A stretch of 27,599 nucleotides of DNA from Bacteroidales bacterium (GTDB lineage: Bacteria > Bacteroidota > Bacteroidia > Bacteroidales > F082), in NCBI GenBank assembly GCA_017508895.1, contig JAFWRA010000131.1, positions 1-27,599 on the forward strand. The letters run 5' to 3'. Position 1 is the first letter of the stretch; each line of letters begins with the position of its first letter. The translations under genes and the position numbers were made by a program. A model generated the notes under the pieces. It did no database searches. It saw only the letters and a list, made by a program, of their open reading frames with translations, and was not told the origin of the DNA. Below are positions 1,258 to 18,688 of the stretch, in pieces.

Positions 1258-1448
1258 GTTAGCCTTCGGCTGTTGATTAGCTTCGCTGTTGGTGAGCTTC
1301 GCTGTCGGTTAGCCTTCGGCTGTTAATTACTTTGTGTTAACATGAAATAATTAACATGAAATAATTAACATGAAATAATTAACATGAAATAATTAACATG
1401 AAATAATTAACACGAAATAATTAACACGAAGTAATTAACACGAAGTGA
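1258..1448 (+). repeat. intergenic hairpin/tandem repeat element, copy A
   Basis: The head holds four mini-hairpin units in the order AGCCTTCGGCTG, AGCTTCGCTG, AGCTTCGCTG, AGCCTTCGGCTG, separated by 6-nt spacers such as TTGATT. A hinge ACTTTGTG follows. The tail is eight perfect-length 14-nt units from 1337 to 1448: five TTAACATGAAATAA, then TTAACACGAAATAA, TTAACACGAAGTAA and TTAACACGAAGTGA. This is the longest tail in the window. The element starts immediately after a TAA stop codon (1255-1257). Confidence 0.9.
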
Positions 1449-1497
1449 TCAGCCTTTCTGTTTCATTCAAGAAAAGTAGTGTTTTTGAAGTATTCTT
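1449..1497 (+). repeat. decayed copy of the shared promoter module
   Basis: This stretch aligns with 2311-2366 and 8175-8231: it shares TCAGCCTTTC, then TTCATTCAAGAAAAGT. The promoter box has decayed to AGTGTTTTTGA instead of TAnnTTTG, and the closing TTGAATAAA is lost. It now lies in the 3' flank of the ferritin gene, which is on the other strand, so it probably drives nothing. Confidence 0.65.
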
Positions 1498-1501
1498 TGT
1501 C

Positions 1502-2017
1502 TTAATCGAGTACCAGGCTGGGGGCGCTGTAGGCGCGGGCGGCGAGCTCCTGGTTGAGCATATAGAGGCTGCGGGGGTCGCTGCCGAAGAGCTCCATCTT
1601 CGAGATCATATCGCGGGCGTTGGTTTCCTCTTCGCCTTGCTCTTTGACGAACCAGTCGAGGAACTGCATGGTGCGGAAATCCTTGACCTTGTTGGCGGCG
1701 TCATAGATGGTGTGGATCGAGGCGGTCACATACTCCTCGTGCTCCAGACCGGCCTTCAGCACGTCCATATCTTCCTTGAACACCTTGTCGGGTTTGGCGA
1801 TGGCACCCAGCGTTACGGGGCAGTCGTTGTTCTGCATATAGCGGTAGAACAGCATTGCGTGGTCGCGCTCCTCCTGGGCCTGAATCATATACCAGTTAGC
1901 GAAACCGTTCAGACCGCGGCGCTCGAAATAGTTGGACATATCAAGATAGAGATAGGCGCTGTAAAGCTCCTTGTTGATTTGATCGTTAAGTAGATCGGAT
2001 ACTTTTTTGTTAAGCAT
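1502..2017 (-). CDS. ftnA: non-haem ferritin
   Basis: This 171-residue protein is a bacterial FtnA-type ferritin, a 24-subunit cytosolic shell that oxidises Fe(II) and stores it as ferric mineral. The ferroxidase-centre residues of the family are in place: E17, E50 and H53 (in QEERDH), E94 and Q127. The length is normal for the family and the ATG start is preceded by a good promoter on the same strand. There is no haem-binding bacterioferritin signature. The gene stands alone and points against all its neighbours; two direct copies of the intergenic repeat element flank it. Ferritin in Bacteroidota is typically induced by iron or oxygen, but no operator is visible here. Function is near certain. 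Confidence 0.97.
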   Translation of the reverse strand: MLNKKVSDLLNDQINKELYSAYLYLDMSNYFERRGLNGFANWYMIQAQEERDHAMLFYRYMQNNDCPVTLGAIAKPDKVFKEDMDVLKAGLEHEEYVTASIHTIYDAANKVKDFRTMQFLDWFVKEQGEEETNARDMISKMELFGSDPRSLYMLNQELAARAYSAPSLVLD

Positions 2018-2082
2018 AATTATTGTTTTTTTATAGATTTTGGTCGAAAAGACAGATTAAAGATGTTCCTGTTTTTCGGCTG

Positions 2083-2113
2083 CAAAAGTACGACTATTTT
2101 CTTATATCGCAAA
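2083..2113 (-). promoter_or_regulatory. promoter of the ferritin gene
   Basis: On the minus strand a -7 box TACTTTTG (plus 2083-2090) is preceded, after exactly 19 nt, by a -33 TTTG (plus 2110-2113). This is the standard Bacteroidota arrangement. It leaves a 5' leader of about 60 nt before the ATG at 2017. Confidence 0.75.
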
Positions 2114-2135
2114 AAAATATTTTGCAAAAGAATAT

Positions 2136-2310
2136 GGCTGTCGGTTAGCTTCGCTGTTGATTAGCCTACGGCTGTTGGTAAGCTTCGCTGTTGATTAGCC
2201 TGCGGCTGTTGGTTAGCCTTCGGCTGTTAATGACTTCGTGTTAACATGAAAAAATCAACATGAAATAACCAACACGAAGTAATTAACACAAAGTGCCCAA
2301 TACGAAGTAA
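2136..2310 (+). repeat. intergenic hairpin/tandem repeat element, copy B
   Basis: After a partial GGCTG the head holds five units (AGCTTCGCTG, AGCCTACGGCTG, AGCTTCGCTG, AGCCTGCGGCTG, AGCCTTCGGCTG). The hinge ACTTCGTG follows, then five 14-nt units from 2241 to 2310, from TTAACATGAAAAAA to CCAATACGAAGTAA. It lies between the ferritin promoter and the AbiE operon and is the only copy that does not adjoin the stop codon of a plus-strand gene. Confidence 0.9.
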
Positions 2311-2366
2311 TCAGCCTTTCGTTTATTCAAGAAAAGTTGTATTTTTGCAGCGTCTTTTGAATAAAA
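2311..2366 (+). promoter_or_regulatory. shared promoter module driving the AbiE operon
   Basis: The module contains the -7 box TATTTTTG (2340-2347) with a TTTC (2317-2320) 19 nt upstream as a weak -33. A 9-bp inverted repeat, TTTATTCAA (2322-2330) and TTGAATAAA (2357-2365), brackets the box. The same module follows repeat copy C at 8175-8231 and is decayed at 1449-1497. It ends 7 nt before the AbiEi start codon. Confidence 0.7.
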
Positions 2367-2373
2367 TGAGATA

Positions 2374-2994
2374 ATGACCTACTTGGAGTTCAGGGAGCAG
2401 TGGCACGGGATGGGATGTTTCAACGTTTATCAGATCCGTGCGTGGGAGCCGGGATTCGACCGAAGCAACCTCACACGCTGGGTGAAGCGGGGCTATTTGT
2501 CGAAACTGCGGCAGGACTGGTATGCCTTCAGCGACCTGAAGGGCACTCCCGAGATGGCGCGTTATATTGCGCAGCGCATTTACACGCCGTCGTACATCAG
2601 CCTGCACTACGCCCTGTCGTTCTACGGCATCATTCCCGAGGCGGTGACCGACATCACATGCGTCACCTCCAACCGCACCACGGCCTACCATAACGACTTC
2701 GGCCGTTTCAGCTACCAGACCGTCAAGCCCGATCTTTTCTTCGGCTTCCGCCAGATGCCCGTTTCGCCGCAGGGCAGCTACCTGCTGGCTTTACCCGAGA
2801 AGGCCATCCTCGACCTGCTGTACCTTTACCCGCAATACAACACCGCCGAGACCTTGTTGGAGCTGCGCTTCGACGAATGGTGGATGCGGGAGGAACTGGA
2901 CAAGGATCGACTGGCGGCTTACGCGACGCAAAGCGGCAACAAGTCGCTGCAAGAACGAATACAATTGTTGATGAAAACCTATACAGATGATTGA
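2374..2994 (+). CDS. abiEi: AbiEi-like antitoxin / transcriptional regulator
   Basis: This 206-residue protein fits the antitoxin of type IV AbiE systems. In that family the antitoxin represses its own operon through an N-terminal winged helix and counteracts the nucleotidyltransferase toxin without forming a stable complex. The N-terminus here has a helix-turn-helix-like stretch ending RWVKRGYLSKLRQDWYAFSD. The middle (YISLHYALSFYGIIPEAV) is the typical family signature. It overlaps the next gene by 8 nt, so the two are translationally coupled. The pair is GC-rich, unlike the DUF262 genes downstream. Assignment by family pattern and partner gene is strong; phage resistance is inference. Confidence 0.87.
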   Translation: MTYLEFREQWHGMGCFNVYQIRAWEPGFDRSNLTRWVKRGYLSKLRQDWYAFSDLKGTPEMARYIAQRIYTPSYISLHYALSFYGIIPEAVTDITCVTSNRTTAYHNDFGRFSYQTVKPDLFFGFRQMPVSPQGSYLLALPEKAILDLLYLYPQYNTAETLLELRFDEWWMREELDKDRLAAYATQSGNKSLQERIQLLMKTYTDD

Positions 2995-3772
2995 TTTACA
3001 GTCCATATTGGCCTACTATCCGCCGCAACTTGCGACGAACGCCGCATTTCACAAGCACATCTTGAAGGAACACATTGAATTGTTGGCGCTGGAGCACCTT
3101 TCGCAATCGCCCTACGCGCCCAAATTGGTGTTCATCGGCGGGACCAACCTGCGCCTTGTCCTCGGATTAGACCGTTTCTCCGAGGATTTGGATTTCGATT
3201 GCAAGCGACTGACGGCTGACGAGTTTGTCTCGATGACCGATGCGCTGGTCGAGCACTTGCGGCTCAACGGTTTGCGCGTGGAGTTGCGCGACAAGGAGAA
3301 TCCCCGGCTGACGGCCTTCCGCCGCAACATCTACTTTCCGGAACTGCTGTTCGACCTAAATCTCACCGGTCATCGGGAGGAAAGGTTTTTGATGAAGATC
3401 GAAGCCCAGGACCAAGGGGTGGACTACACTCCGCAAACGGCGATGGTCAGTCGCAACGGCTTCTTTTTCCCCGTGACGGTTCCGGCCAAGAGTACCATGC
3501 TCTCCATGAAGCTTGCGGCACTGCTGGCCCGGGCCAAAGGACGCGACTTCTACGACACCATCTTCCTTTGGCAACAAACCGACCCCGACTACGGCTTCCT
3601 TCACCAACGATGTGGAATCGACACCCCGGAAATGTTGAAGAAAGCACTATCCGACAAACTTGACACCACTGACCTTGAACTAAAGCAGAAAGACTTCGAG
3701 CATCTGCTCTTCAACCCTTCGCGCAGCACACAGATACTGCATTTTCGACAATTTATAGAGAAAATGCTATGA
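2987..3772 (+). CDS. abiEii: AbiEii-like nucleotidyltransferase toxin
   Basis: This 261-residue protein is the toxin half of the AbiE pair, of the DNA polymerase beta-type nucleotidyltransferase superfamily. The catalytic motif is clear: GGTNLRLVLGLDRFSEDLDFD at residues 51-71, with the paired acidic residues D67 and D69. Family members transfer nucleotides to tRNA or other targets and stop growth during phage infection. Near residue 185 a lysine-rich motif (LLARAKGRDFYD) typical of the family follows. Length is close to normal and no motif is missing, so the protein is likely active. It shares the promoter and an 8-nt overlap with the antitoxin. Confidence 0.9.
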   Translation: MIDLQSILAYYPPQLATNAAFHKHILKEHIELLALEHLSQSPYAPKLVFIGGTNLRLVLGLDRFSEDLDFDCKRLTADEFVSMTDALVEHLRLNGLRVELRDKENPRLTAFRRNIYFPELLFDLNLTGHREERFLMKIEAQDQGVDYTPQTAMVSRNGFFFPVTVPAKSTMLSMKLAALLARAKGRDFYDTIFLWQQTDPDYGFLHQRCGIDTPEMLKKALSDKLDTTDLELKQKDFEHLLFNPSRSTQILHFRQFIEKML

Positions 3773-3838
3773 TACGCGGTTAGATTGACCGTATGAAAGT
3801 GTATTAGAGAATGACAATTCTATAAATAACAAATATTT

Positions 3839-5551
3839 ATGGCAGAAATAAATTTAGAAACAAAGTTAATAGGCGATATTCAAGGATGGTTTTATGTTCC
3901 TGATTATCAACGGGGCTATCGTTGGGGAGAAAATGAAGTCAAGACACTTTTGAATGATATTAACGAGTATGGTGGAAAAATAAAAAAAACGGACAAAGAT
4001 AATTATTGTTTGCAACCAGTGGTAGTACGCAATTTGGGTGATAAATATGAATTAATTGATGGACAGCAAAGACTCACGACGCTTTATCTCATTTATGTTT
4101 ATATGAATAAGGTCAGCCATGGATTCATGAGTGAACCAAGGTTTACACTTTCCTACGAAACACGTAATGAATCCGTTGACTTTCTCAAAAAGCCAGACGA
4201 AGCCAAACGCAATGACAATATAGATTTCTTCTTTATCTACAATGCATATAAAACCATCGAGAATTGGTTTTCACATAAAGAAAAACTCCAATCTACTCTG
4301 ACAAACATCAACAAGTACTTCGATGAGTGTGTGAAAATCATTTGGTACGAAGTTCCTGACACAGAAAACAGTATTGACCTTTTTACTCGATTGAACATAG
4401 GAAAAATTCCTCTGACAAGTTCAGAACTTGTAAAAGCATTGTTCCTAAAGGACGAAAGTGAAAATGCAATTCGTCAGGAAGAATTGTCCCTAGAATGGGA
4501 TAATATGGAAAAAGAACTGCATAACGAGGAGTTTTGGGGATTTCTCACCAACTCGGATATTGACAACTATCCAACGCGGATAGATATGATATTAGACTTG
4601 ATTTCCAGAAAGCAGTACGGCGACAAGGAAACATATAGAACTTTTTTCTATTTCGATAATGAACTTAAAAGTGGTAAAAGTTTGGAGAATATTTGGGACG
4701 AAATCCAGCATAATTTCTTGACGCTTAAGGAATGGTTTTCCGACCATGAGTTTTATCATAAAATAGGATACTTGATAGCAAGCAATTCTAAAAAACTGGT
4801 AGATATATTAAATGACTATGCTGATAAATCAAAGACTGAATTTCGACAATACTTGGATGAGAGCATAAAAGAGAGCATGAACTTCAAAAAAGATTATACA
4901 GATTTAGATTATGAGCATGACTATAACGAAATAAAAAGGCTCCTCCTTCTTTTCAATGTTGAATCGGTCAGGCAAATAGACGACAAAAAAAGAAGATTTC
5001 CTTTTGGCCGTCATAAGAAAGAAAATTGGAGTCTTGAACATATTCATGCACAGCACTCAGAAGGTTTGAAAACGAACGAAAAAATAGTGGAATGGCTTAA
5101 AGCACATGTTAAGTCGCTACAATCTATTGGAGGACAAGACGAATTGATTTCTGATATGGAGCAATTGGTGAGATCGATTGAAGATAATCCTAAAACGCCA
5201 AAAGTTAGAGAGCGGTTCGAACCTTTGCAACAACAAGTGGTAAATGTTCTTTCTCCTAAAGGAGAGGACTCGGAATATATTCATCTGTTGCCCAACATGG
5301 CGTTGCTTTCTTCGGGACAGAATTCCGCCATAAGCAATTACACATTTGACGCTAAACGGAATCTGATTTTGGAAATGGACAAAAAGGGCTCTTATATTCC
5401 GTTTTGCACAAAAATGGTGTTCCTTAAATATTATTCGGCAGAAGACACCAATTTGCATTTCTGGGGGAAAAACGATAGAGATGCATATTTTAAAGCTTTG
5501 GAGAAAGTGTTGGAATCTTATTTGACTAATGAAGAACAAGTAAATGAATAG
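3839..5551 (+). CDS. DUF262 protein with C-terminal HNH (DUF1524-like) part
   Basis: This 570-residue protein starts with a ParB/sulfiredoxin-like DUF262 domain: VPDYQRGYRW (residues 20-29) and LIDGQQRLTTLY (72-83), the nucleotide-hydrolysing motif of the GmrS family. The C-terminus has an HNH-like pattern: SLEHIHAQ around residue 400 and LLPNMALLSSGQNSAISNYT before FDAKRN further on. This resembles DUF1524 of GmrD and of SspE/BrxU. Such proteins are type IV restriction enzymes that act on modified phage DNA. It lies 66 nt after the AbiE pair with no TAnnTTTG promoter visible in between, and 5 nt before a second DUF262 gene. It is AT-rich, which suggests transfer. Domain calls are solid; substrate unknown. 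Confidence 0.85.
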   Translation: MAEINLETKLIGDIQGWFYVPDYQRGYRWGENEVKTLLNDINEYGGKIKKTDKDNYCLQPVVVRNLGDKYELIDGQQRLTTLYLIYVYMNKVSHGFMSEPRFTLSYETRNESVDFLKKPDEAKRNDNIDFFFIYNAYKTIENWFSHKEKLQSTLTNINKYFDECVKIIWYEVPDTENSIDLFTRLNIGKIPLTSSELVKALFLKDESENAIRQEELSLEWDNMEKELHNEEFWGFLTNSDIDNYPTRIDMILDLISRKQYGDKETYRTFFYFDNELKSGKSLENIWDEIQHNFLTLKEWFSDHEFYHKIGYLIASNSKKLVDILNDYADKSKTEFRQYLDESIKESMNFKKDYTDLDYEHDYNEIKRLLLLFNVESVRQIDDKKRRFPFGRHKKENWSLEHIHAQHSEGLKTNEKIVEWLKAHVKSLQSIGGQDELISDMEQLVRSIEDNPKTPKVRERFEPLQQQVVNVLSPKGEDSEYIHLLPNMALLSSGQNSAISNYTFDAKRNLILEMDKKGSYIPFCTKMVFLKYYSAEDTNLHFWGKNDRDAYFKALEKVLESYLTNEEQVNE

Positions 5552-5556
5552 AATTT

Positions 5557-7770
5557 ATGGAACCAAAGACATTTAGGACAATTTTTTCACCATACACTGA
5601 TAAGTCTGGCAAAACAGTTGAAATCAAAAGAATTGAAATTCCTAAGATTCAAAGAGATTTCGCGTATGGCCGTATCGATGAGAGAAACAGGCGTAAAAGA
5701 AATAATTTCTTGGACACACTTTTTGATGCTGTCAACGGAAAAACAATTACACTTGATTTCATTTATGGTGACATCAAAGAGAATATATTAACACCCCTTG
5801 ATGGACAGCAAAGGTTGACAACACTCTTTCTTCTTTATTGGTATGCTGCAAAAAAGGAAACCATAGCTGAAACTGAAATCAATTTCCTGAGAAATTTCAG
5901 CTATGAGACAAGACCATCTGCCCGCAAATTCTGTGAATCTATAACTACCAAAGCTTTTGAGTTAAACAGAGAAGAGATTATCTCGGAGCAAATCAAAGAC
6001 AGAAACTGGTTCCCTCTCGAATGGCAACATGATGCGACAATCTCTTCAATGCTTGTTATGCTTGATGCCATTCAAGCAAAATTTTCTTGTATAGAGAATC
6101 TTTTTCAAAAACTCGAAAATATATCTTTCTACTTTCTTCCCATTGAGGATATGGGCTTGACAGATGAACTCTATATCAAAATGAATTCTCGGGGAAAACC
6201 ATTAACTCAATTCGAACATTTCAAAGCCGAGTTTGAAAAGCAACTGAAACTCGCCGATGAAAACGTTGCAAAACGGATTGGTTCCAAAATTGACAGGGAA
6301 TGGACTGATTTGTTGTGGCAATATCGCGATAGTGGTGTTGGTGATGATAACGACAATACAACTGATGATGAATTCTTGCGATACTTTATCTTTATCTGTA
6401 ATATTATTTGTTACAAAAACGGTGGCAGTCCCAAGACAAGCGACGAATTCGAATTGGTAAAAGAGTTTTTCACCATTCAGGAAAATAATGACAAAGGCAA
6501 CGTGATCGAAAATGCAGAAACTCTTGAAAGTTTTTTCGATTGTTGGCTGGATGATAACAAAAAAAGCATTCCTATCCAAAATTTCTTTGAGGCATTCTCT
6601 TCAAAAGAGCATTCGGCAGGGAAAATCAAAACAAACTATAATGTCAACTTGCTTGAGGATTGTCTGAAGAATTATGCGGACATTATAGGAAAGAATAGAC
6701 GTAGATTTACTTTAAATCAGATTATTTTATTGTATGCATTTGTAACATATAGGCAAAACCTGTCGAGTGTGAATCCAGAACAGTTCAGCAGACGTTTGCG
6801 TACATTAAACAATCTGATATTAAATTCTTCCGACCAAATAAGTGACAGCGAAGACCGTCAAGGCGGCAACCGTTTGCCCGCCATTTTACGCCAAGTTGAT
6901 AGCATTATTGTGAATGGTCAAATAGCAGATAGCGAAACGGTTGGTATTAATTTCAATCCATCTCAATTAGAAGAAGAGAAAATAAAATTGGAATGGACCC
7001 TTAATAATCCGGAAAAAGCAGAATTACTTTTTGCATTGGAAGATCACGAACTGCTTTATGGTCAAATTTCAGTTGTCGGATTAGAACATCCTGAGTGTTT
7101 TGAGCGATTTGAATCTCTATTCAAATGTAATTGGGATTTGGTAGATTGTGCATTGTTCACCTTTGGAGATTATAAACAGAAAGAGCGAAATGGTTGGCGT
7201 TATCAATTAGGTTCTTCTATGAGCGATGGATTTGCGTGGAAAACTCTTTTTCACAAAAGTGAGAATCTTATTGGCTTTGACAACACTAAGAATGTTCTGA
7301 ATCAATTAATGTCGCTAAATTCAGATTTCACAGATGATTTCCTGACAGGTTTATTAAGTAAGTACATGGAGAATTGTGAGGGCAAAAAAGAATACACATG
7401 GATTTACTATTACATCAAATACAATGTGTTCCGACCTGGGCGTTATGGCAAATATTGGTGGAATGACTTTGAAAATTCACCGTACGTATTCACAAGTATT
7501 CATCAAAAACAAAAGCCTTCGCCAAATTCATACAACCCATTTTTGAAAGCAATCAGTGACAATGTATGGCGTGAACATTGGGGAAATCGCATTTATCTTA
7601 GCGAAAAAGAGTTTTTGAGAGAAACTCAAACATCATATCGAGTGATTTCTAATGATGTGAATGAAGATTTGCTAAAAGAATTCGCGATTACCCAAAACGA
7701 AAATGGCATAGATACAGAAAACCGTATTGAAAAAATGAGACGAATCCTTGATGAGATGTCGAACAATTAA
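5557..7770 (+). CDS. large DUF262 protein, partner of the preceding gene
   Basis: This 737-residue protein carries a second DUF262 domain: IPKIQRDFAYGR near residue 30 and LTPLDGQQRLTTLFLLYWYA near residue 85-105, followed by the family motif MNSRGKPLTQFEHFKAEFEK. The long remainder has no HNH motif that I can see. A conserved-looking aromatic stretch (RPGRYGKYWWNDFENSPY) lies near residue 625. The start codon is 5 nt after the stop of the previous gene, so the two are one operon. A nuclease-bearing DUF262 protein paired with a larger nuclease-less one suggests a two-subunit restriction or abortive system. The pairing is seen; the joint function is inference. Confidence 0.82.
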   Translation: MEPKTFRTIFSPYTDKSGKTVEIKRIEIPKIQRDFAYGRIDERNRRKRNNFLDTLFDAVNGKTITLDFIYGDIKENILTPLDGQQRLTTLFLLYWYAAKKETIAETEINFLRNFSYETRPSARKFCESITTKAFELNREEIISEQIKDRNWFPLEWQHDATISSMLVMLDAIQAKFSCIENLFQKLENISFYFLPIEDMGLTDELYIKMNSRGKPLTQFEHFKAEFEKQLKLADENVAKRIGSKIDREWTDLLWQYRDSGVGDDNDNTTDDEFLRYFIFICNIICYKNGGSPKTSDEFELVKEFFTIQENNDKGNVIENAETLESFFDCWLDDNKKSIPIQNFFEAFSSKEHSAGKIKTNYNVNLLEDCLKNYADIIGKNRRRFTLNQIILLYAFVTYRQNLSSVNPEQFSRRLRTLNNLILNSSDQISDSEDRQGGNRLPAILRQVDSIIVNGQIADSETVGINFNPSQLEEEKIKLEWTLNNPEKAELLFALEDHELLYGQISVVGLEHPECFERFESLFKCNWDLVDCALFTFGDYKQKERNGWRYQLGSSMSDGFAWKTLFHKSENLIGFDNTKNVLNQLMSLNSDFTDDFLTGLLSKYMENCEGKKEYTWIYYYIKYNVFRPGRYGKYWWNDFENSPYVFTSIHQKQKPSPNSYNPFLKAISDNVWREHWGNRIYLSEKEFLRETQTSYRVISNDVNEDLLKEFAITQNENGIDTENRIEKMRRILDEMSNN

Positions 7771-7848
7771 TTGTATGGGGGGAAAAAAACTCGAAAAGCA
7801 TCTTTCTTTCCTCTAAGAACAACACAAAACGAACAAACCCACACCGAT

Positions 7849-8106
7849 ATGGATTACAACGACAACATACCGTCCAGACTGCTGAACCACTTCAGCACAC
7901 CGGCAGAGCGCAAGAAGCCTGCCGACAATGAGGCCTTCACCGATGCTGTGATATCGCTCCTGATTGACATGCACGAAAGCGAGTTCCGGTGGGACGAGCA
8001 AAAGCAGGTGTACATCTGCACGGTCGCGGGCATGGAACTCAAGCTGCGAGAGTCGTCGTACAGGGGGCTAAAATACTTGAAGAAGGTCACATCCTGCGGC
8101 TGTTGA
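7849..8106 (+). CDS. small hypothetical protein whose end runs into a repeat
   Basis: I choose the ATG at 7849 (MDYNDNIPSRLLNHFSTPAE), giving 85 residues; a TTG at 7771 would add 26 low-complexity residues. The protein is acidic and contains FTDAVISLLIDMHESEFRWDE, likely helical. I do not recognise the family. The last residues SCGC and the TGA stop are encoded by the first unit of repeat copy C (CTGCGGCTGTTGA), so the native C-terminus may have been replaced. It follows the DUF262 pair by about 80 nt, with more GC-rich sequence, and may not belong to that operon. Confidence 0.5.
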   Translation: MDYNDNIPSRLLNHFSTPAERKKPADNEAFTDAVISLLIDMHESEFRWDEQKQVYICTVAGMELKLRESSYRGLKYLKKVTSCGC

Positions 8107-8174
8107 TAAGCTTCGCTGTTGATGATTTCGTGTTAACATTCACTCATCAACATTCACTCACCAACACGAAGTAA
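8098..8174 (+). repeat. intergenic hairpin/tandem repeat element, copy C
   Basis: A partial CTGCGGCTG is followed by one AGCTTCGCTG unit, a hinge ATTTCGTG and three 14-nt units from 8133: TTAACATTCACTCA, TCAACATTCACTCA and CCAACACGAAGTAA. The first unit supplies the stop codon of the upstream small gene. Confidence 0.85.
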
Positions 8175-8231
8175 CCAGCTTTCAGCTTCATTCAAGAAAA
8201 GTTGTATCTTTGCCAAGTCTTTTGAATAAAA
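8175..8231 (+). promoter_or_regulatory. shared promoter module driving the ClbS-like gene
   Basis: The -7 box TATCTTTG (8205-8212) lies inside the same module as at 2311-2366, including TTCATTCAAGAAAAGTTGTA and the closing TCTTTTGAATAAAA. TTTC at 8180-8183 is a weak -33 with 21-nt spacing. The ATG of the next gene is about 45 nt downstream. Confidence 0.7.
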
Positions 8232-8255: not shown

Positions 8256-8786
8256 ATGGACAAAAACGAACTTTTAGCAGCCATGTCGGACAGTTATGCG
8301 AAGCTGTCCGAACAAATCGGCAAAATGACAGATGACGAACTGAACGCGACCTTCCAGTTCGCCAATGACCCAAAAAAATGCGGCGCACGATGGATTTACG
8401 ACCAGTGCGCCCGCGACCTCCTCATACACCTTTATGAATGGCAGGTGCTGATGCGCGAATTTGTGAACAACATCCGCGAAGGCCATCAAAGGGACTATCT
8501 GCCCGACGAATATCGCAAAAACTACCACGAGATGGACAAGATGCTGGTGGAAAAACACCAGAACACCTCGTTTAAGGAGGCGCAGCGGCTTCTGGAGCAA
8601 ACCCATGACGAAATGATTCAGCTGGCGAGCAGCTTCTCCGAGGAGGAACTCTTCACAAAAGGCCACTACAAGTGCACCTACACCACCGATATGGCCGCTT
8701 ACTTCGCGAGCGTCACCACAAGTCCCTACAAGCAGGCCCTGAAGATGTTGAAGACGCACCAAAAGAAGCAGAAGATTTCGTGTTAA
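8256..8786 (+). CDS. ClbS/DfsB-like four-helix bundle protein
   Basis: This 176-residue, all-helical protein has the layout of the ClbS/DfsB family within the DinB-like superfamily: an N-terminal MDKNELLAAMSDSYAKLSEQ, then ARDLLIHLYEWQVLMREFV. ClbS itself protects colibactin producers by opening the reactive cyclopropane of the toxin. For other members the substrate is unknown, so resistance to a small electrophile is only a possibility. The final residues KISC and the TAA stop lie in repeat copy D (TTCGTGTTAACA), so the C-terminus may be trimmed or altered. It is driven by the promoter module at 8175-8231. Confidence 0.7.
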   Translation: MDKNELLAAMSDSYAKLSEQIGKMTDDELNATFQFANDPKKCGARWIYDQCARDLLIHLYEWQVLMREFVNNIREGHQRDYLPDEYRKNYHEMDKMLVEKHQNTSFKEAQRLLEQTHDEMIQLASSFSEEELFTKGHYKCTYTTDMAAYFASVTTSPYKQALKMLKTHQKKQKISC

Positions 8787-8813
8787 CATTTACTCACCAA
8801 CATTCACTTAACC
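8777..8813 (+). repeat. intergenic repeat element, short copy D (tail only)
   Basis: This copy has only the hinge TTCGTG and two tail units, TTAACATTTACTCA (8783-8796) and CCAACATTCACTTA (8797-8810). There are no mini-hairpin heads. The TAA stop of the ClbS-like gene (8784-8786) is the TAA of the first unit. Confidence 0.7.
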
Positions 8814-8849: not shown

Positions 8850-9455
8850 ATGACTATCCGACTTGAACAACCCGAAGATTATCGCGAGGTGGAGGACCTC
8901 ACCCGCACGCCTTCCGCCGAGAAGGCCAAGCTGATGCTGCGGACCGAGAGGCTGACGCTTCGTCCCTGGTTTGAGAGCGACGCCGACTCCTTGTTCAAAT
9001 ACGCCTCCGACCCGGACGTGGGACCTCGGGCGGGCTGGCCACCGCATAACAGCGTGGAGGAAAGCCTGGAGATCATCCGCACGGTATTCCGCAACGACTC
9101 CAACTGGGCCATCGAGCTCAACGCGACGGGAGAAGCCATCGGGGCCATTGGCTACGGTCCTTCGTGCGAGTGCAATCTCCCCGCCCGCGAGGGAGAGCCC
9201 CTCTGCGGCTATTGGGTGGCCAAACCGTATTGGAACCAAGGCATCTGCACGGAAGCGCTGCAAGCGATGTTAGACTATATCCGCCGAACGACGGACATCC
9301 AATCGCTCATCAGCGGGCATTTCGTTGACAATCCCGCCTCCGGCCGAGTGATGGAGAAATGCGGATTCCAACCCACCGGGGAAACCTGCATCGACGAGAC
9401 CCAGTATCAAGGCAAAGACAGACCTATCAGGGTGCTGAGGCTGGAACTGAAATGA
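8850..9455 (+). CDS. RimJ/RimL-type GNAT acetyltransferase with a foreign N-terminus
   Basis: From residue 29 on (MLRTERLTLRPWFESDADSL) this is a RimJ/RimL-family GNAT that transfers acetyl from acetyl-CoA to an amine. The acetyl-CoA-binding region is near CGYWVAKPYWNQGICTEALQ, and the end is GRVMEKCGFQPTGET. The first 19 residues, MTIRLEQPEDYREVEDLTR, instead match the start of a different GNAT subfamily (YhbS-like). The gene therefore looks like a chimera, with a possible true start at ATG 8934. Substrate unknown. Its last 167 bp are duplicated at 18417-18583. It lies 63 nt after the ClbS-like gene and probably shares its promoter. Confidence 0.85.
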   Translation: MTIRLEQPEDYREVEDLTRTPSAEKAKLMLRTERLTLRPWFESDADSLFKYASDPDVGPRAGWPPHNSVEESLEIIRTVFRNDSNWAIELNATGEAIGAIGYGPSCECNLPAREGEPLCGYWVAKPYWNQGICTEALQAMLDYIRRTTDIQSLISGHFVDNPASGRVMEKCGFQPTGETCIDETQYQGKDRPIRVLRLELK

Positions 9456-12913: not shown

Positions 12914-12938
12914 ATTCAATAGCCTAACAAAGAATACG

Positions 12939-13055: not shown

Positions 13056-13060
13056 CCGAA

Positions 13061-13984
13061 TCAGCTGTTATCTGGTCGCGAAGACGCAGAAAACCGGGAA
13101 TCCGCCTGGCTCGGTGCCACGCCGAAATGCCGCTTATAGACGCGGCTGAAATGCTGCGGATAGCTGAAGCCGAGCGCGTCGGAGACTTCTCCCACCGTAT
13201 GCCCGCCGGCTAACATCTCGTTGGCCCGCGCCATCAGGAACCGCCGCAGGAACACCGTGGCCGAATCGCCGGTCAGCTCTTTCACGAGGTCGCCGAAATA
13301 GTTGGGCGACAGGAACAGCTCCTGCGCACAGTAGCGCACCGTGGGGAGCCCTTTCTCATGCTGTTTCCCCTCCCGATAGTAGTGCTCCAACAGCGTCTCC
13401 AAGCGCCGCAGTAGGTCGGGGTGCTGGCCGAACGAGACCTGCATCTGCATGGAATAGAACCGGGCGATGTACTCCAGCACCAAAGCCAACCGCGCCACCA
13501 CAATGTTGACGGTATGGCGGTCCTGCTCCGGCCGCAAAAGCTCCGTCCGCATTTCTTCGAGAAGCCGCACGAGGGTGTCGCGCTGCCGGTCGTCCAAAGC
13601 CAGCGTCTCACTGACGTTGTAGCTGAAATAGGTGTAGCCCGACATCCGCCGGCCCAGCTCGCGCCCGTTCAGGAGGTCGGGGGAGAAAAGCAGGGCCCAT
13701 CCCTCGGCCTGAATCTCCTCGCCGGTGTCGGTCTTGCCCCCGATCTGGCCAGGCGAGACGCACATTAGCGTGTGCTGCGGCATGTCGTACCGCAACTGCC
13801 CGTAGGAAAGCGCCTCCATGCGCTGGTCAGCGATGAAGATCCCATACACATCGTAACTGTTCAGGCTGTGGCGGCAATGCTCCAGCTCATCGTAGTGTAT
13901 CACACTGATGTGCGGGTGCAGCACCGGCGCCCCGATATAGCGGGCGTAGTCGTTGACACTGTGGACTTTAAGTATCTTCTTCAT
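13061..13984 (-). CDS. AraC-family transcriptional regulator
   Basis: This 307-residue protein ends in the two helix-turn-helix motifs of AraC/XylS regulators: YCAQELFLSPNYFGDLVKEL and VGEVSDALGFSYPQHFSRVY, followed by KRHFGVAPSQ. The N-terminal part is a cupin-like sensing region. I choose the ATG at 13984 (MKKILKVHSVNDYARYIGAP): an upstream start at 14104 would put the promoter box inside the gene. It faces the aldo/keto reductase across 165 bp, so it very likely controls that operon. The effector is unknown; the target genes suggest a reactive carbonyl or aromatic compound. The 3' end abuts the broken SDR gene. Confidence 0.92.
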   Translation of the reverse strand: MKKILKVHSVNDYARYIGAPVLHPHISVIHYDELEHCRHSLNSYDVYGIFIADQRMEALSYGQLRYDMPQHTLMCVSPGQIGGKTDTGEEIQAEGWALLFSPDLLNGRELGRRMSGYTYFSYNVSETLALDDRQRDTLVRLLEEMRTELLRPEQDRHTVNIVVARLALVLEYIARFYSMQMQVSFGQHPDLLRRLETLLEHYYREGKQHEKGLPTVRYCAQELFLSPNYFGDLVKELTGDSATVFLRRFLMARANEMLAGGHTVGEVSDALGFSYPQHFSRVYKRHFGVAPSQADSRFSASSRPDNS

Positions 13985-14013
13985 CCCATTTCGCCTTGGT
14001 GGAATCAACGATG

Positions 14014-14021
14014 CAAAGTTA
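14014..14021 (-). promoter_or_regulatory. promoter -7 box of the AraC gene
   Basis: On the minus strand the sequence reads TAACTTTG, a match to TAnnTTTG, 29 nt before the chosen ATG. It supports the start at 13984 over 14104. Confidence 0.65.
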
Positions 14022-14034
14022 AAAAAAATCCGAA

Positions 14035-14071
14035 TCCGTAAAAGTGTTTGATTATTCCGTAAACCGTTTAA
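14035..14071. promoter_or_regulatory. candidate AraC operator: two direct repeats 22 bp apart
   Basis: TCCGTAAAAGTGTTT (14035-14049) and TCCGTAAACCGTTTA (14057-14071) share TCCGTAAA and a G-TTT end. The start-to-start distance of 22 bp, about two helical turns, is typical of paired AraC-family half-sites. They lie between the divergent promoters. Confidence 0.5.
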
Positions 14072-14094
14072 CGCCGTTTTGGGTTCGTCATTGT

Positions 14095-14102
14095 ATTTTT
14101 GC
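14095..14102 (+). promoter_or_regulatory. promoter -7 box of the aldo/keto reductase operon
   Basis: TATTTTTG lies 47 nt before the ATG at 14150. No TTTG is seen at the usual -33 spacing, as expected for a promoter that needs an activator. The putative AraC half-sites end 23 nt upstream. Confidence 0.6.
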
Positions 14103-14149
14103 AATGTAGAAACCAGTCATTTTTTTGTCTAACTTAAAATATTGAAAAT

Positions 14150-15091
14150 ATGAAAGATACGAAAATTGCATTAGGCACTTGGGCCTGGGGTTCAGGCGCG
14201 TTCGGCGGCGATGCCGTCTATGGGGTCAACACCAACGAAGATAACTTGAAACCCGTTTTTGAAGCGGCCGCGAAAGCCGGCTTATCCCTTTGGGACACGG
14301 CCACCGTGTATGCCATGGGTGACTCGGAACGTATTCTCGGCCAGTTTGTCGCCTCCGTTCCGCGCGAGTCCGTGCAGATATCTACCAAGTTCACCCCGCA
14401 GTTGGCGGAGATGTACGGCAACTCGGTCGAGAAGATGGCCGAGGCATCGATGGAACGCATGGGCATCGACTACATCGACATGTATTGGATCCACAACCCG
14501 ATGGATGTCGAACGCTGGACACCGGGGCTGATCCCGCTTCTCCAGTCGGGCAAGGTGCGCCAAGTGGGCGTGTCGAACCACGACATCCGGGAGATTGAGC
14601 GTGCCAACGGGATCCTGAACCAGGCAGGGTTCCGCGTGAGCGCCGTGCAGAACCACTTCTCACTGCTCTACCGTTCAAGCGAGCGCGGCGGCGTGCTCGA
14701 CTACTGTCACCGCCACGACATCCGCTTCTGGTCTTACATGGTGTTGGAGCAGGGTGCGCTGACCGGCAATTTCTCGCCCGCCAATCCGCTGCCCGCCGAC
14801 AGCGACCGCGGCCGCAAATACAACCCGGTGCTCGACAAACTGCAGGCCCTCACCGACGAGATGAAGGCGATAGGGAAAAAATACGGCGCGTCGTGTTCGC
14901 AGATTGGCATCGCCTGGGCCATCGCCAAGGGCACCATGCCCATCGTCGGTGCCACGAAAGAGCGTCACGTGGTGGAAGCCGCTGCCGCTGCCGACATCGC
15001 TCTCACTGCAGAGGAGGTCGCCCGCTTGGAGACCTTGGCCGACGCCACCGGCATCGACACCCGCGGCGACTGGGAACACACGATGGAATAA
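14150..15091 (+). CDS. aldo/keto reductase
   Basis: This 313-residue protein is an NADPH-dependent aldo/keto reductase with a TIM barrel. The catalytic tetrad is complete: D49 and Y54 (LWDTATVYAMGDSE), K80 (STKF) and H115 (WIHNP). The coenzyme-binding end is typical: GTMPIVGATKERHV. It reduces aldehydes or ketones in the cytosol; the substrate cannot be read from sequence. It is the first gene after the divergent AraC regulator and is followed by a secreted amidohydrolase and a CMD-cupin lipoprotein, so it may handle a product taken up after periplasmic processing. That pathway is inference. Confidence 0.93.
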   Translation: MKDTKIALGTWAWGSGAFGGDAVYGVNTNEDNLKPVFEAAAKAGLSLWDTATVYAMGDSERILGQFVASVPRESVQISTKFTPQLAEMYGNSVEKMAEASMERMGIDYIDMYWIHNPMDVERWTPGLIPLLQSGKVRQVGVSNHDIREIERANGILNQAGFRVSAVQNHFSLLYRSSERGGVLDYCHRHDIRFWSYMVLEQGALTGNFSPANPLPADSDRGRKYNPVLDKLQALTDEMKAIGKKYGASCSQIGIAWAIAKGTMPIVGATKERHVVEAAAAADIALTAEEVARLETLADATGIDTRGDWEHTME

Positions 15092-15100
15092 AAAAATCCC

Positions 15101-15108
15101 TATTTTTG
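15101..15108 (+). promoter_or_regulatory. promoter -7 box before the amidohydrolase gene
   Basis: TATTTTTG lies 9 nt after the stop codon of the aldo/keto reductase and 28 nt before the chosen ATG at 15137. It suggests that the amidohydrolase can also be transcribed on its own. Confidence 0.55.
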
Positions 15109-15136
15109 CAAGAAAAAAAAGAGAGTGTCTCACACT

Positions 15137-16462
15137 ATGAGGAAAATACTGATAATCAGCTTTATGGCATTGTTTATGGCGCAGGCCTCCGCTCAGATTG
15201 ACCTCCACAGCCACGCCATCACGCAGGGCTATCTCGACTACATCAAGGCCAACGGCGCCGAGATGGACGAAGGGTTCCCCATCCCGGGCTGGGACATGGA
15301 GAAGCACATCGCCTTCATGGACAAGGCCGGTATCCAGACTTCGGTGCTGACGATGCCCGCGCCGCAACCCTTCTTCGGCGATGCGGAGGCTTCGGCAAAA
15401 GTGTGCCGAAAATACAACGAAGAGTGCGCCGCGCTGAAGGCCCGCTATCCAGGGCGTTTTATGTTCTGCGCCGCACTGCCTCTGCCCGACGTGCTGCACG
15501 CTTTGGAGGAGGCACGCTACGCCTTGGAGGTGTTGGGAGCCGACGGCATCAAGTTGGCCACCAACAGCTACGGACAGTACCTCGGTGACCCCGCCTTGGA
15601 CACGCTGATGGCCTACCTCGATGCGCAAAATGCCGTCATCATCCTGCATCCGCACAAACCCTCAGCGGTGAACTCCCAGCTCATCGCTGATGTGCCGTTG
15701 GCGAGCTACGAATACTTGGCCGAGACCTCACGTGCAGTGCTCAACATGGTGGCCCACAACGTGTTGGTGCGCTATCCGAACCTAAAGGTGGTGGTACCGC
15801 ACTGCGGCTCGTTCCTGCCCAACGCCCTGCCGCGCTTCCGTTCGCTGCTGCCCGTGATGGTGAAACAGGGCATCATGCAGCCCGTGGATATCGATGCCAA
15901 CCTGTCGCGGCTCTACTACGACCTGGCCGGTGCGCCCACCGATGACGTCCTCGACGCGCTTCTCACCATCACCACGCCCGACCATATCCTCTACGGCAGC
16001 GACTACCCGTATGTGGCCGAGTCGGTTCTCCTCAGCGGCAAGCAGGCCTTGGAGGTGCGTCTCGCCTCGCACGGACTGAACCCACAGGACATTTTCACCG
16101 ATAACGCCCGCCGGCTGTTCGGCGAGAAAGTGCCCCTGCGGCAATACGGCGAACGCATCGTCCGCCTCGCCGAAATCGAGGTGATGCCGGAGTATCTGGA
16201 AGAGTATCTGGCTTACGCCAAGGAAGTTGGGGTAACCTCAGTGAATATGGAGCCCGGTGTGCTGACATTGTTCTCTATGCAGACCAAGGAAGACCCTTGC
16301 AAGATCTACATCCTGGAAATCTATGCCGACAAAGAATCCTACCAGAGCCACCTCCAGACCGCCCATTTCAAGAAGTACAAGGAGGGCACCGCCCAAATGG
16401 TGAAGTCGCTGAAACTGATTGACACCAAGCCGATGGTGGGGATGGAGATGATAGGACGTTGA
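15137..16462 (+). CDS. secreted ACMSD-like amidohydrolase fused to an ABM (YgiN-like) domain
   Basis: I take the ATG at 15137, because residues 1-19 (MRKILIISFMALFMAQASA) form a signal peptide; an ATG at 15125 adds four residues. The mature part starts QIDLHSH, the HxH metal motif of the amidohydrolase-2/ACMSD family. The other metal ligands are present: ILHPHKP, VVPHCGSFLP and YGSDYPY. The last 100 residues (RIVRLAEIEVMPEYLEEYLA to KPMVGMEM) match the antibiotic-biosynthesis monooxygenase fold. This combination in a single exported protein is uncommon. The family hydrolyses or decarboxylates ring acids; the substrate here is unknown. It overlaps by a few bases the longest frame of the next gene. 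Confidence 0.85.
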   Translation: MRKILIISFMALFMAQASAQIDLHSHAITQGYLDYIKANGAEMDEGFPIPGWDMEKHIAFMDKAGIQTSVLTMPAPQPFFGDAEASAKVCRKYNEECAALKARYPGRFMFCAALPLPDVLHALEEARYALEVLGADGIKLATNSYGQYLGDPALDTLMAYLDAQNAVIILHPHKPSAVNSQLIADVPLASYEYLAETSRAVLNMVAHNVLVRYPNLKVVVPHCGSFLPNALPRFRSLLPVMVKQGIMQPVDIDANLSRLYYDLAGAPTDDVLDALLTITTPDHILYGSDYPYVAESVLLSGKQALEVRLASHGLNPQDIFTDNARRLFGEKVPLRQYGERIVRLAEIEVMPEYLEEYLAYAKEVGVTSVNMEPGVLTLFSMQTKEDPCKIYILEIYADKESYQSHLQTAHFKKYKEGTAQMVKSLKLIDTKPMVGMEMIGR

Positions 16463-16488
16463 AAAAACAAACAAATTCAAAAAACAAT

Positions 16489-17622
16489 ATGAAACACACC
16501 CTTCTGATTTTCGCCGCCACCGTTGTGTTAATGGCCGGCTGCAACAAGACAACAAAAACAGACAAAGATATGAACACTTTGACATTCAACGAGAAGCAGG
16601 CGGCGGCGATGACGGCCATCGCCTGCTACGAGGCGCAGGGCGACCAAGCGTCGTTAGCTACCGCCATCAACGAGGGTTTCGACGCGGGGCTTACCGCCAA
16701 CCAGATCAAGGAGGCCCTTTCGCAACTCTACGCCTACACGGGCTTCCCGCGCTCGCTCAACGCATTAGGCACCCTGCAGAAGGTGATGGAGCAGCGCGGT
16801 GAGGTGGAGGCCGGCACCGAGTCCACTCCCCTACCCTCCAGCTACGACGCTCTGAAACAAGGCACCGAAGTGCAGACCAAACTGTCGGGACAGCCCTTCG
16901 ACTACAAGTTCTGTCCCGCCGAGGACTACTACCTCAAGGCGCACCTCTTCGGCGACATCTTCGCCCGCGACCTGCTCACCCACGCCGACCGTGAGTTGGT
17001 GACCGTCAGCGCCTTGGCCGGTCTGGAGGGCGTGGAACCCCAGCTGGCCGCCCACGTGCGCGGCGCACGGAACATGGGTCTGACCGACGCCCAGCTGCTC
17101 GCCATCCCGAAAGTGTTGCAGGAGCGTGTGGGCAAAATGGAGGCGCACCGTGTCGCCGTGGCCATCCAGCAACTGGGTATCAGCGACTCTGCCAACGACC
17201 ACATCGCCAGCGACATATACGTCCAGAATTACGTTGATTTGAAGTCGAGCTGGCGGCGGGGCGAGCCGAACACTGCCTATGCGCAGTACTTCATCGGTAA
17301 CAGCTATCTTGCTCCCTACGACGGCGGTATGGTCAACGTGACCTTCGAGCCGGGATGCCGCAACAACTGGCACATCCACCACAAGCAGGTGCAGGTGTTA
17401 GTGTGCGTCTATGGCCGTGGCTGGTACCAGGAATGGGGCAAACCCGCCGTCAAGTTGGAGCCTGGCGTAATCATTGAGATTCCCGAGGGTGTGAAGCACT
17501 GGCACGGCGCCGCCAAAGACAGCTGGTTGCAGCACCTCACCTACCACAAGGACGTGCAGGAAGGGGCCAGCAACGAGTGGTTAGAGCCCGTCACCGATGA
17601 CCAATATGGCGCTTTGAAATAG
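16489..17622 (+). CDS. lipoprotein with two CMD domains and a cupin domain
   Basis: The ATG at 16489 gives a lipoprotein signal (MKHTLLIFAATVVLMAGC, lipobox LMAGC); an upstream start at 16459 adds ten polar residues before it and is less likely. Two carboxymuconolactone decarboxylase-like repeats follow (INEGFDAGLTANQIKEALSQ and LTHADRELVTVSALAGLEGV), without the CxxxH redox motif of AhpD. A cupin forms the end, with metal ligands in NNWHIHHKQVQV and GVKHWHG. Proteins of this make-up are annotated as CMD/cupin proteins of unknown substrate. The gene lies 26 nt after the amidohydrolase and is probably co-transcribed; both act outside the cytosol. Confidence 0.85.
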   Translation: MKHTLLIFAATVVLMAGCNKTTKTDKDMNTLTFNEKQAAAMTAIACYEAQGDQASLATAINEGFDAGLTANQIKEALSQLYAYTGFPRSLNALGTLQKVMEQRGEVEAGTESTPLPSSYDALKQGTEVQTKLSGQPFDYKFCPAEDYYLKAHLFGDIFARDLLTHADRELVTVSALAGLEGVEPQLAAHVRGARNMGLTDAQLLAIPKVLQERVGKMEAHRVAVAIQQLGISDSANDHIASDIYVQNYVDLKSSWRRGEPNTAYAQYFIGNSYLAPYDGGMVNVTFEPGCRNNWHIHHKQVQVLVCVYGRGWYQEWGKPAVKLEPGVIIEIPEGVKHWHGAAKDSWLQHLTYHKDVQEGASNEWLEPVTDDQYGALK

Positions 17623-17786
17623 TTAGTAAGCTTCGCTGTTGGTTAGCTACGCTGTTAGTTAGCCTTCGGCTGTTAATTAGCTTCGCTGTTAATTACTTCG
17701 TGTTAACATGAAATAACCAACACGAAGTCACCAACACGAAGTAATAAACACGAAGTAATAAACACGAAGTAATAAACATTCACTTA
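17622..17786 (+). repeat. intergenic hairpin/tandem repeat element, copy E
   Basis: Four head units (AGCTTCGCTG, AGCTACGCTG, AGCCTTCGGCTG, AGCTTCGCTG), the hinge ACTTCGTG, then six 14-nt units from 17703 to 17786, including CCAACACGAAGTAA and two TAAACACGAAGTAA. It begins at the TAG stop of the cupin gene. No promoter module follows; the next ATG is only 5 nt after the last unit. Confidence 0.9.
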
Positions 17787-17791
17787 AAGAT

Positions 17792-18409
17792 ATGAAAGCG
17801 CTTCTTATCAATGGCAGTCCCAACGCGAAGGGCTGCACCTTCACCGCCCTGAGCCTTGTGGCGGAAGAATTACAGAAAAACGGCGTGGAAGCCGAAATCG
17901 TCCACGTGGGACATAAAAACATCCACGGCTGCATCAGCTGCGGGAAATGCTATGAAACAGGCAAATGCGTCTTCGACGACATCGTGAACGAAGTCGCCCC
18001 GAAATTCGAGCAAGCCGACGCGCTGGTCATCGGCTCGCCGGTCTATTACGCAGGCATCGCAGGCACGATGAAATCCTTTCTCGACCGCCTCTTCTTCAGC
18101 ACGCACTTCCGGAAGTGCATGAAAGTGGGCGCCGCCGTCTGTTCGGCCCGACGCGCCGGCACCACTGCCACCTTCGACCAGCTGAACAAGTACTTCACCA
18201 TCAGCGAGATGCCTATCGCAAGCACCCGCTACTGGAACATGGTACACGGTCACTGTGCCGAGGACGTGATACAGGATGAGGAGGGCGTGCAGTGTATGCG
18301 TATTCTCGGCCGCAACATCGCCTTCCTCGTCAAGGCCATCGCCGCGGAGAAGGAGCGCAACGGTCTGCCCGAGGCAGAAGAAGCGGTATTCACGAATTTT
18401 ATCCGCTAA
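17792..18409 (+). CDS. iron-sulfur flavoprotein / flavodoxin-like NAD(P)H-dependent oxidoreductase
   Basis: This 205-residue protein has a flavodoxin-like fold with the FMN phosphate loop GSPNAKGCTFTAL (residues 8-20) and SPVYYAGIAGTMKSFLDRLF. A compact cysteine motif, C47-x2-C50-x2-C53-x5-C59 (GCISCGKCYETGKC), matches the [4Fe-4S] site of the Isf family, so it is more than a simple FMN reductase. It likely moves electrons from NAD(P)H or ferredoxin to a small substrate; the partner is unknown. The start codon is nearly fused to repeat copy E with no TAnnTTTG promoter in between, so expression depends on read-through from the AraC-controlled genes or on the repeat itself. Confidence 0.85.
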   Translation: MKALLINGSPNAKGCTFTALSLVAEELQKNGVEAEIVHVGHKNIHGCISCGKCYETGKCVFDDIVNEVAPKFEQADALVIGSPVYYAGIAGTMKSFLDRLFFSTHFRKCMKVGAAVCSARRAGTTATFDQLNKYFTISEMPIASTRYWNMVHGHCAEDVIQDEEGVQCMRILGRNIAFLVKAIAAEKERNGLPEAEEAVFTNFIR

Positions 18410-18416
18410 AATGACA

Positions 18417-18585
18417 AACGACGGACCTCCCATCTCTCATCAGCGGGCACTTCGTTGACAATCCCGCCTCCGGCCGTGTGATGGAGAAATGCGGGTTCCA
18501 ACCCACCGGGGAAACCTGCATCGACGAGACCCAGTATCAAGGCAAAGACAGACCCATCAGGGTGCTGAGGTTGGAACTGAAATAG
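18417..18585 (+). pseudogene. duplicated 3' end of the GNAT gene
   Basis: Bases 18417-18583 align without gaps to 9287-9453 with eight mismatches that I count. The reading frame is kept: SLISGHFVDNPASGRVMEKC to VLRLELK. The stop is TAG, formed with the first bases of repeat copy F, while the full gene ends TGA. No start codon and no upstream GNAT sequence remain. The fragment begins 8 nt after the stop of the flavoprotein gene. Confidence 0.9.
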
Positions 18586-18688
18586 CCTGCGGCTGTTGGT
18601 TAGCTTCGCTGTTAGTTAGCCTGCGGCTGTTAGTTAGCTTCGGCTGTTAATTACTTCGTGTTAACATGAAGTAATCAACATGAAGTTT
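18584..18688 (+). repeat. intergenic hairpin/tandem repeat element, copy F
   Basis: Four head units (AGCCTGCGGCTG, AGCTTCGCTG, AGCCTGCGGCTG, AGCTTCGGCTG), the hinge ACTTCGTG, then two tail units TTAACATGAAGTAA (18661-18674) and TCAACATGAAGTTT (18675-18688). It starts inside the stop codon of the GNAT fragment. Confidence 0.9.

Follow-up and report, generated by a model that had tools for sequence, protein, structure and literature searches.

The subject of this work is a family of composite intergenic repeats in a 27.6-kb stretch of Bacteroidales DNA with 47% G+C (hereafter the window, i.e., the whole stretch analysed). We propose to read these repeats as non-autonomous forms, devoid of a gene, that derive from a mobile element organized around an IVP/S23 gene, a small gene known from split ribosomal RNAs; both the movement and the role of the protein are what we infer, and we put the probability of this reading at slightly above one half (about 0.52). 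Comparison with related genomes shows the putative complete element to consist of an array of short units, a gene for an IVP/S23 four-helix-bundle protein and the same units in inverted orientation. The same comparison shows the gene at the inversion point in relatives, the occurrence of one chromosomal site both with and without the gene, repeat words that track the IVP lineage across sites, and a frequent placement between co-directional genes.

The repeats of the window and their unit

Re-reading of the window bore out that six repeat clusters are present at the places given in the preliminary description and that all of them share one orientation. They are listed below.

1258..1448, plus strand: E1, gene-less; four head hairpins from 1261 (minus-strand units with 3-4 bp stems), hinge at 1329-1342, then eight 14-nt tail units
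2136..2310, plus strand: E2, gene-less; five head hairpins from 2147, hinge at 2233-2246, about five tail units
8091..8174, plus strand: E3; one degenerate (8091) and one perfect head hairpin, hinge at 8125-8138, a tail of variant AACATTCACTCAYC units and one AACACGAAGTAA unit
8775..8813, plus strand: E4, headless; hinge and two variant tail units (an earlier start, 8777, is corrected here)
17620..17786, plus strand: E5; starts at the TAG stop codon (17620-17622) that ends the gene upstream, continues with four head hairpins and the hinge (17695-17708), and has tail units that stop just short of an ATG at 17792
18583..18688, plus strand: E6; four head hairpins, the first overlapping a TAG stop codon, hinge at 18653-18666, about two tail units

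The composite repeats are real and unusual, and chance does not account for them. With at most one mismatch allowed, the hinge ACTTCGTGTTAACA has seven matches in the window (the six copies plus the opposite strand of the near-palindrome at 18653) and none in 100 dinucleotide shuffles. The arrays were recovered independently by Tandem Repeats Finder (TRF), which gave periods near 16-18 or 34 nt and near 14 nt. No Rfam family reached its gathering threshold in the window. The perfect 20-nt palindrome ACTTCGTGTTAACACGAAGT, which the hinge and the first tail unit had been said to form, occurs nowhere in the window and in none of the six copies; the actual hinge-tail junctions are ACTTTGTGTTAACATGAAAT, ACTTCGTGTTAACATGAAAA, ATTTCGTGTTAACATTCACT, ATTTCGTGTTAACATTTACT, ACTTCGTGTTAACATGAAAT and ACTTCGTGTTAACATGAAGT. 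E1, E2, E5 and E6 have inverted arrays meeting at a palindromic join; in E3 the head is nearly absent, and E4 has no left arm.

Head, hinge and tail are not three separate parts, as had been supposed: the minus strand of the head units shows the tail motif, with longer stems. This single motif is a linker followed by a mini-hairpin with a GNA triloop, and a stem of 2, 3 or 4 bp gives a unit of 14, 16 or 18 nt, each added pair contributing two bases. The head unit reads AAC-AGC(C)-GNA-(G)GCT-AAY on the minus strand and the tail unit AAC-AC-GAA-GT-AAY on the plus strand. At the hinge, two 2-bp units meet head to head (TTACTTCGTGTT joined to AACAYGAARTAA) and the orientation of the units flips, and therefore a complete copy is one large inverted repeat of small hairpins. 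In the loop the G and the A are kept and the middle base varies: among 277 distinct head contexts, 207 have GAA, 37 GCA, 14 GTA and 2 GGA (260 of 277 in total). The inner pair of the stem in 210 distinct GNA tail contexts is C-G 140 times and T-A 59 times, the remainder being C/A (5), T/G (5) and A/G (1).

A role of the repeats at the RNA level is possible. The predicted RNA folds of E1 (z = -7.5 / -6.3), E5 and E6 are, on either strand, stabler than those of all 100 shuffles. For E2 and E3 this holds on the minus strand only, 2 and 10 shuffles, respectively, being as stable on the plus strand, and the fold of E4 is ordinary, 63 and 17 of 100 shuffles being as stable.

The IVP gene at the inversion point

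Units of the window's type surround an IVP gene in four genomes. At loci L101 (genome G013), L056 (G004), L312 (G003) and L082 (G021), a reading frame of 405-438 bp lies where the units change orientation. Its product matches TIGR02436 (four helix bundle protein), and the loci are PF05635 matches. The first three loci represent one site in three genomes, as their shared neighbour gene indicates, and L082 is a second site. At the first of these sites, G021 (L082 13440-13670) and G024 (L058) carry units without an IVP gene. The four proteins, which we call GNA-type IVPs, have mutual scores of 0.66-0.93 and score at most 0.34 with any other IVP of the genus that was compared. In a tree of 99 IVPs (98 of 102 loci, with L130, L168, L191 and L194 left out and L312 then added) the four require two changes and form one group in 66% of 200 bootstraps; this tree is based on few columns, and its row L186, which was misread, forms a very long branch, so we rely on pairwise similarity instead. 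No IVP gene was found in the window, and since none is present where its units flip, the window copies are to be regarded as gene-less derivatives and not as complete members.

IVP loci, their inverted arms and their repeat words

The presumed complete element is not confined to units of the window's type. Each of the 40 genomes of the genus has 2-18 PF05635 matches, none of 14 control genomes has any, and an IVP/S23 match is present in 90 of the 118 sampled genomes of the phylum. The flanks of 30 IVP loci were read. In nearly all of them one flank has tandem short repeats and the opposite flank has similar words in inverted orientation, the words differing from site to site. When the inverted similarity of the two 300-bp flanks was scored, a cut of z>4 was exceeded by 63 of 70 loci in the genus, 14 of 29 loci elsewhere in the phylum and 2 of 138 control open reading frames (ORFs). 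A stricter test was applied to 150-bp flanks of predicted ORFs at 71 genus, 27 phylum and 19 plasmid loci, with a cut above the 99th percentile of 290 controls. It was passed by 49/71, 7/27 and 8/19 loci and by 3/290 controls, one of the latter being an IS5 transposase gene, while direct similarity of the flanks passes in only two loci of each of the three groups. A best period of 7 or 14 was obtained for 96 of the 142 flanks from the genus, compared to 32 of 580 control flanks. The arms of the genus are mostly heptad repeats. The architecture is rarer outside the genus, both in the rest of the phylum and on plasmids from other phyla; on plasmids, inverted arms are exemplified by Nostoc (GGGAACA/TGTTCCC), Calothrix, Geminocystis, Gemmatirosa and Azospirillum.

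One intergenic site illustrates that the arms occur with and without the gene. At L261-L264 (in G001, G021, G007 and G003) AGGCAA-type words are followed by an IVP gene and then by TTGCCT-type words. At the same site G014 (L265) has AGGCAACAGGCA joined directly to TGCCTTTTGCC, i.e., a palindromic hinge and no gene, which parallels the relation between L312 and the window elements. Other genomes have different words or none there (17 loci were read).

The words also agree with the lineage of the protein. Pairs of loci from different sites with similar IVPs (score >0.6, n=53) have a mean word overlap of 0.097 versus 0.024 after permutation, with 0 of 2000 trials as high as observed, and pairs from the same site with dissimilar IVPs (<0.6, n=25) have an overlap of 0.03-0.06. 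Either the arms would travel with the gene or the protein would select its words.

It is conceivable that the arrays arise by polymerase slippage and template switching at palindromes, with the IVP genes being no more than tolerated passengers. The very variable number of units (up to 32 in a head and up to 19 in a tail run), the common occurrence of arrays without an IVP gene and the palindromic joins, which are typical of template switching, all agree with this, but a passenger gene would predict neither the inverted flanks found at 63 of 70 genus loci nor the agreement between words and IVP lineage across sites, and we regard this explanation as unlikely. A slightly stronger, though still improbable, candidate is that the IVP is a nucleic acid-binding regulator, the arms being autoregulatory and the dispersed arrays just upstream of start codons being a regulon spread by selection and not by transposition. 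Agreement between words and protein fits a binding specificity. In many unit runs the tail stops shortly before a sense start codon (within 40 nt in 36 of 83), and some units supply the ATG themselves (L319, L320). The TAACTGA heptads of Beggiatoaceae, according to the excerpts of PMC4679880 that were consulted, lie for the most part in forward orientation ahead of a start codon, and the most frequent single class ends 1 nt before it. However, a regulon would hardly explain why IVP genes are gained and lost at orthologous sites, why one site is occupied by dissimilar IVPs with different words, and why IVP genes are present inside unrelated operons, including cas operons.

Two observations concern the sites occupied by IVP genes. 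Beside a purH-like gene (so named from the reading of flanks alone) a hot site (e.g., L114-L117, L120, L129, L132) holds different IVP lineages with different words. On cyanobacterial plasmids (L294, L296, L305) IVP genes lie inside CRISPR-cas operons. The gene order is cas6-IVP-cas4 in two genera, and another genus has cas10-IVP-cmr3. Inverted repeats are clear at L296, the score of L305 is just under the strict cut and the repeats of L294 are direct. These IVP genes may be insertions rather than partners of cas genes, and an IVP gene found in a cas or another operon should be viewed with the warning that it may not be functionally linked to its neighbours.

If, as we propose, the window repeats derive from an IVP element, we envisage the following scenario. 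The IVP protein would bind the hairpin formed by its own inverted arms, either as RNA or as single-stranded DNA, and would promote copying of the arms and the gene into gaps between genes. The arms would lengthen and shorten by slippage. Skipping of the gene-carrying loop would lead to a gene-less copy with a palindromic hinge (GTT joined to AAC here, GGCA joined to TGCC in another family), and such copies may be mobilised in trans. Once several same-direction copies are present, homologous recombination could shuffle the genes between them, as may have happened to the block of AbiE and GmrSD genes in the window.

A number of points weigh against the derivation of the window repeats from a mobile IVP element. 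Neither movement nor a target-site duplication was found, and within the window's own family just two sites are known to carry the gene. Gene-less arrays are more numerous than IVP genes, several of them being tail-only arrays without a flip, and the gene-less form in G014 could precede an insertion as well as follow a loss. Agreement between words and IVP would also be expected if the protein binds the words without moving them, and overlap at the same site falls fast, from 0.50 (53 pairs with IVP scores >0.75) to 0.08 (42 pairs with scores of 0.60-0.75). Elsewhere in the phylum many loci have short arms or none (z does not exceed 4 in 15 of 29, and 20 of 27 fall short of the strict cut). The strict cut is also missed by 11 of 19 plasmid loci, and the repeats of L294 are direct, not inverted. 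The IVP loci are mainly the best-scoring ones or were chosen from the hit list and do not form a random sample. The covariation seen in the units is not independent because units copy along arrays. Finally, the 'empty' version of the E5 site, described below, already contains tail units, and simple insertion is not the whole story.

Distribution and placement of the units

The family is not limited to six sites of one assembly, being found in many genomes of the genus. Among the sampled genomes it is confined to this one of 17 Bacteroidales genera: the exact hinge is present in 12 of 24 genomes belonging to the nearest genus and in none of 16 genomes sampled from other parts of the order. Of 40 genomes of the genus, 25 have the head junction pattern; the control, i.e., the reversed pattern, has two matches in all. 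The nearest comparison genome has 23% of the window's sampled 31-letter words. Database records in which the head-hinge pattern occurs bear the names Bacteroidales, Bacteroidetes or Bacteroidaceae, and several of them come from rumen, sheep colon or red deer. One exact head-hinge pattern was found in 0 viral contigs, and one IVP query had no match in a phage collection. Relatives of the IVP are present on five viral contigs, three of which (L333, L334 and L336, IMG/VR) have clear inverted short repeats, as judged by eye.

On the seven contigs with at least two exact hinges all copies are co-oriented, bar one overlapping match on the opposite strand, and one contig of G021 (C14) has eight unit runs within 16 kb. 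By simple rules and with no control set, a sense stop codon lies within 25 nt of the start in 45 of 83 distinct unit runs and a sense ATG within 40 nt after the end in 36. The shared orientation may in large part reflect sense orientation relative to the gene downstream, but in 32 of 83 runs an antisense ORF begins left of the head, and the minus-strand ferritin gene lies between two plus-oriented elements. At L316, L317, L319 and L320 the tail units extend as far as the start codon of the following gene or even provide it (AAC ATG AAA).

Eleven loci could be compared at the site of E5: three are filled, six are tail-only, one retains the right flank only and one neither flank. The full element is present in the window and in G008, G010 and G021, with G008 and G010 being alike there, and G003, G009, G013, G014, G020 and G041 hold only two or three AACATTCACTCACC-type units. 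The filled site has inverted arms and no clean target-site duplication relative to the 'empty' one. Since tail-type units are present at 'empty' sites, the elements would grow at existing tail units or replace them.

Relation to known systems

The reading of the repeats as a mobile element, which had been one of the initial suggestions, is supported, but hardly in the form of REP sequences or classical MITEs. REPIN/BIME sequences are likewise short, palindromic and mostly gene-less, and their complete form is a RAYT gene flanked by inverted copies. Movement of the window repeats by a RAYT (Y1 transposase) might be suspected from their small, intergenic, multicopy hairpins and from the Y1_Tnp genes present in 36 of 40 genus genomes, 1-6 in each (e.g., G021:C14:81276). 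However, no run of at least two units is present at the 28 of 87 Y1_Tnp matches that were examined, which include every such match of 11 element-bearing genomes, and the gene located at the flip is an IVP/S23 gene instead, with words that vary by lineage. RAYT-driven movement is extremely improbable.

A close counterpart is the intervening sequence (IVS) of 23S rRNA known from Coxiella and Leptospira, in which an IVP gene is likewise located inside an inverted repeat that folds as one stem-loop (PMC4990558; for this and the other cited articles our statements concern the excerpts consulted). Unlike that IVS, the sites described here lie between protein genes, the arms are varied tandem short words and many copies have no gene. 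The window elements, which are located between protein genes and have no Rfam match at gathering threshold, were rejected as members of the 23S rRNA IVS class. The same article describes terminal inverted repeats and an S23 frame in the Coxiella IVS, calls its function and origin unclear, notes that some suspect a mobile element and mentions, as one theory, that the reading frame serves mobility. Inverted arms and the agreement of words with IVP lineage make this theory directly testable. In an article on rRNA insertions of the candidate phyla radiation (CPR), 23S_rRNA_IVP is called functionally uncharacterised (PMC11270868), '23S rRNA IVP' appears in a figure legend on CRISPR-linked genes (PMC10910872), and PMC5524665 and PMC8700078 list four helix bundle proteins as genes, with no repeats tied to them in the excerpts. 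No report tying IVP genes to flanking short tandem repeats was found in the part of the open-licence PMC literature consulted.

Heptad repeats were published separately for several groups of bacteria: GGGAATC in Xanthomonas (PMC4692102), TAACTGA in Beggiatoaceae, Cyanobacteria and Bacteroidetes (PMC4679880) and the Class I/II repeats of the P6b element of Nostoc trnL (PMC4476775). Going by the excerpts, they resemble the arms described here in being 7-nt tandem words, intergenic or stem-forming, with some inverted pairs; 70 and 75 inverted pairs were counted in two Xanthomonas genomes (PMC4692102). For the transmission of TAACTGA it was stated that 'no mechanism is evident' and that a repeat-binding protein might be the mobile element (PMC4679880), and the history of the P6b repeat classes was called unresolved (PMC4476775). 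The terms S23 and four helix are absent from the main text of these three articles. The link between the published heptads and the IVP is proposed here and is drawn from genomes other than theirs; IVP elements are one possible origin for several of these repeats. More generally, and only tentatively, S23/IVP genes with inverted heptad arrays might constitute one mobile class present in several phyla, with no known transposase, recombinase or reverse transcriptase of its own, in which the IVP would be the mobility protein and of which the published heptads and rRNA intervening sequences would be traces.

One IVP, L105, matches the solved chains 2GSC and 2RLD, each deposited with five chains. 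It is also distantly similar to Avd of diversity-generating retroelements (NF033474, E 5.5e-6, 26.6 bits, below the cut-off of 80); the match of IVPs to TIGR02436 four helix bundle protein is far better. A CRISPR array was rejected for the window repeats by reading, with no CRISPR finder run, as the spacers are short and near-constant and the unit length is variable.

Surroundings of the repeats in the window

Other features of the window that touch the repeats are as follows.

2311..8090, plus strand: AbiEi-AbiEii and two GmrSD genes, between E2 and E3
2325..2347, plus strand: promoter-like stretch just after the E2 tail, with similar stretches at 1465 (after E1) and 8190 (after E3)
18430..18586, plus strand: imperfect copy, by direct reading, of the 3' end of the GNAT acetyltransferase gene at 8850-9455; it runs into E6

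G021 has no AbiE/GmrSD block, and a single element replaces it, the left edge of which is that of E2 and the right edge that of E3. For the local REARRANGEMENT, same-direction copies together with homologous recombination would be enough to explain this difference. One clear case, E2/E3 versus G021, speaks for recombination between copies. The two tyrosine recombinase genes of G021, the genome richest in elements, lie away from its arrays.

These surroundings could be taken for an integron-like cassette array with the repeats as recombination sites of a tyrosine recombinase, since copies are clustered and co-oriented on all seven multi-hinge contigs, and the AbiE and GmrSD genes lie between copies where G021 has one element instead. 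The genome of G021 is 99% complete, however, and of its only two PF00589 genes one is on a contig with no hinge among those listed and the other is 62 kb from the only hinge of its contig; because these genes lie away from the arrays the idea was dropped. Moreover, the ferritin gene located between two plus-oriented elements (1502-2017, minus strand) is antisense to them, the number of units is variable and the block swap is explained by homologous recombination. An integron-like origin is thus very improbable. As an attC array in the strict sense the repeats were rejected too: PF00589 is present in 12 genomes, and in G021 no match lies beside an array, with the limit that the contigs are draft, an integrase may lie elsewhere and the model is a general one.

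The copied end of the GNAT gene, about 9 kb away from the original, appears to be the trace of a rearrangement that ended at E6. The promoter-like stretch ATTCAAGAAAAGTTGTAT follows E1-E3 but was rejected as a part of the element, since it also occurs in relatives that have no element. A shared promoter- or operator-like stretch, ATTCAAGAAAAGTTGTATYTTTGC..CTTTTGAATAAAA, precedes AbiEi, DUF1706 and other genes, with or without an upstream element (window 1465, 2325 and 8190; L044 3440; L045 17888; L095), and the stretch after E1 seems orphaned. At the left edge of the window, positions 2-745 hold an ORF cut by this edge, the last 235 codons of which match the second half of the PADLOC profile PDC-S27.

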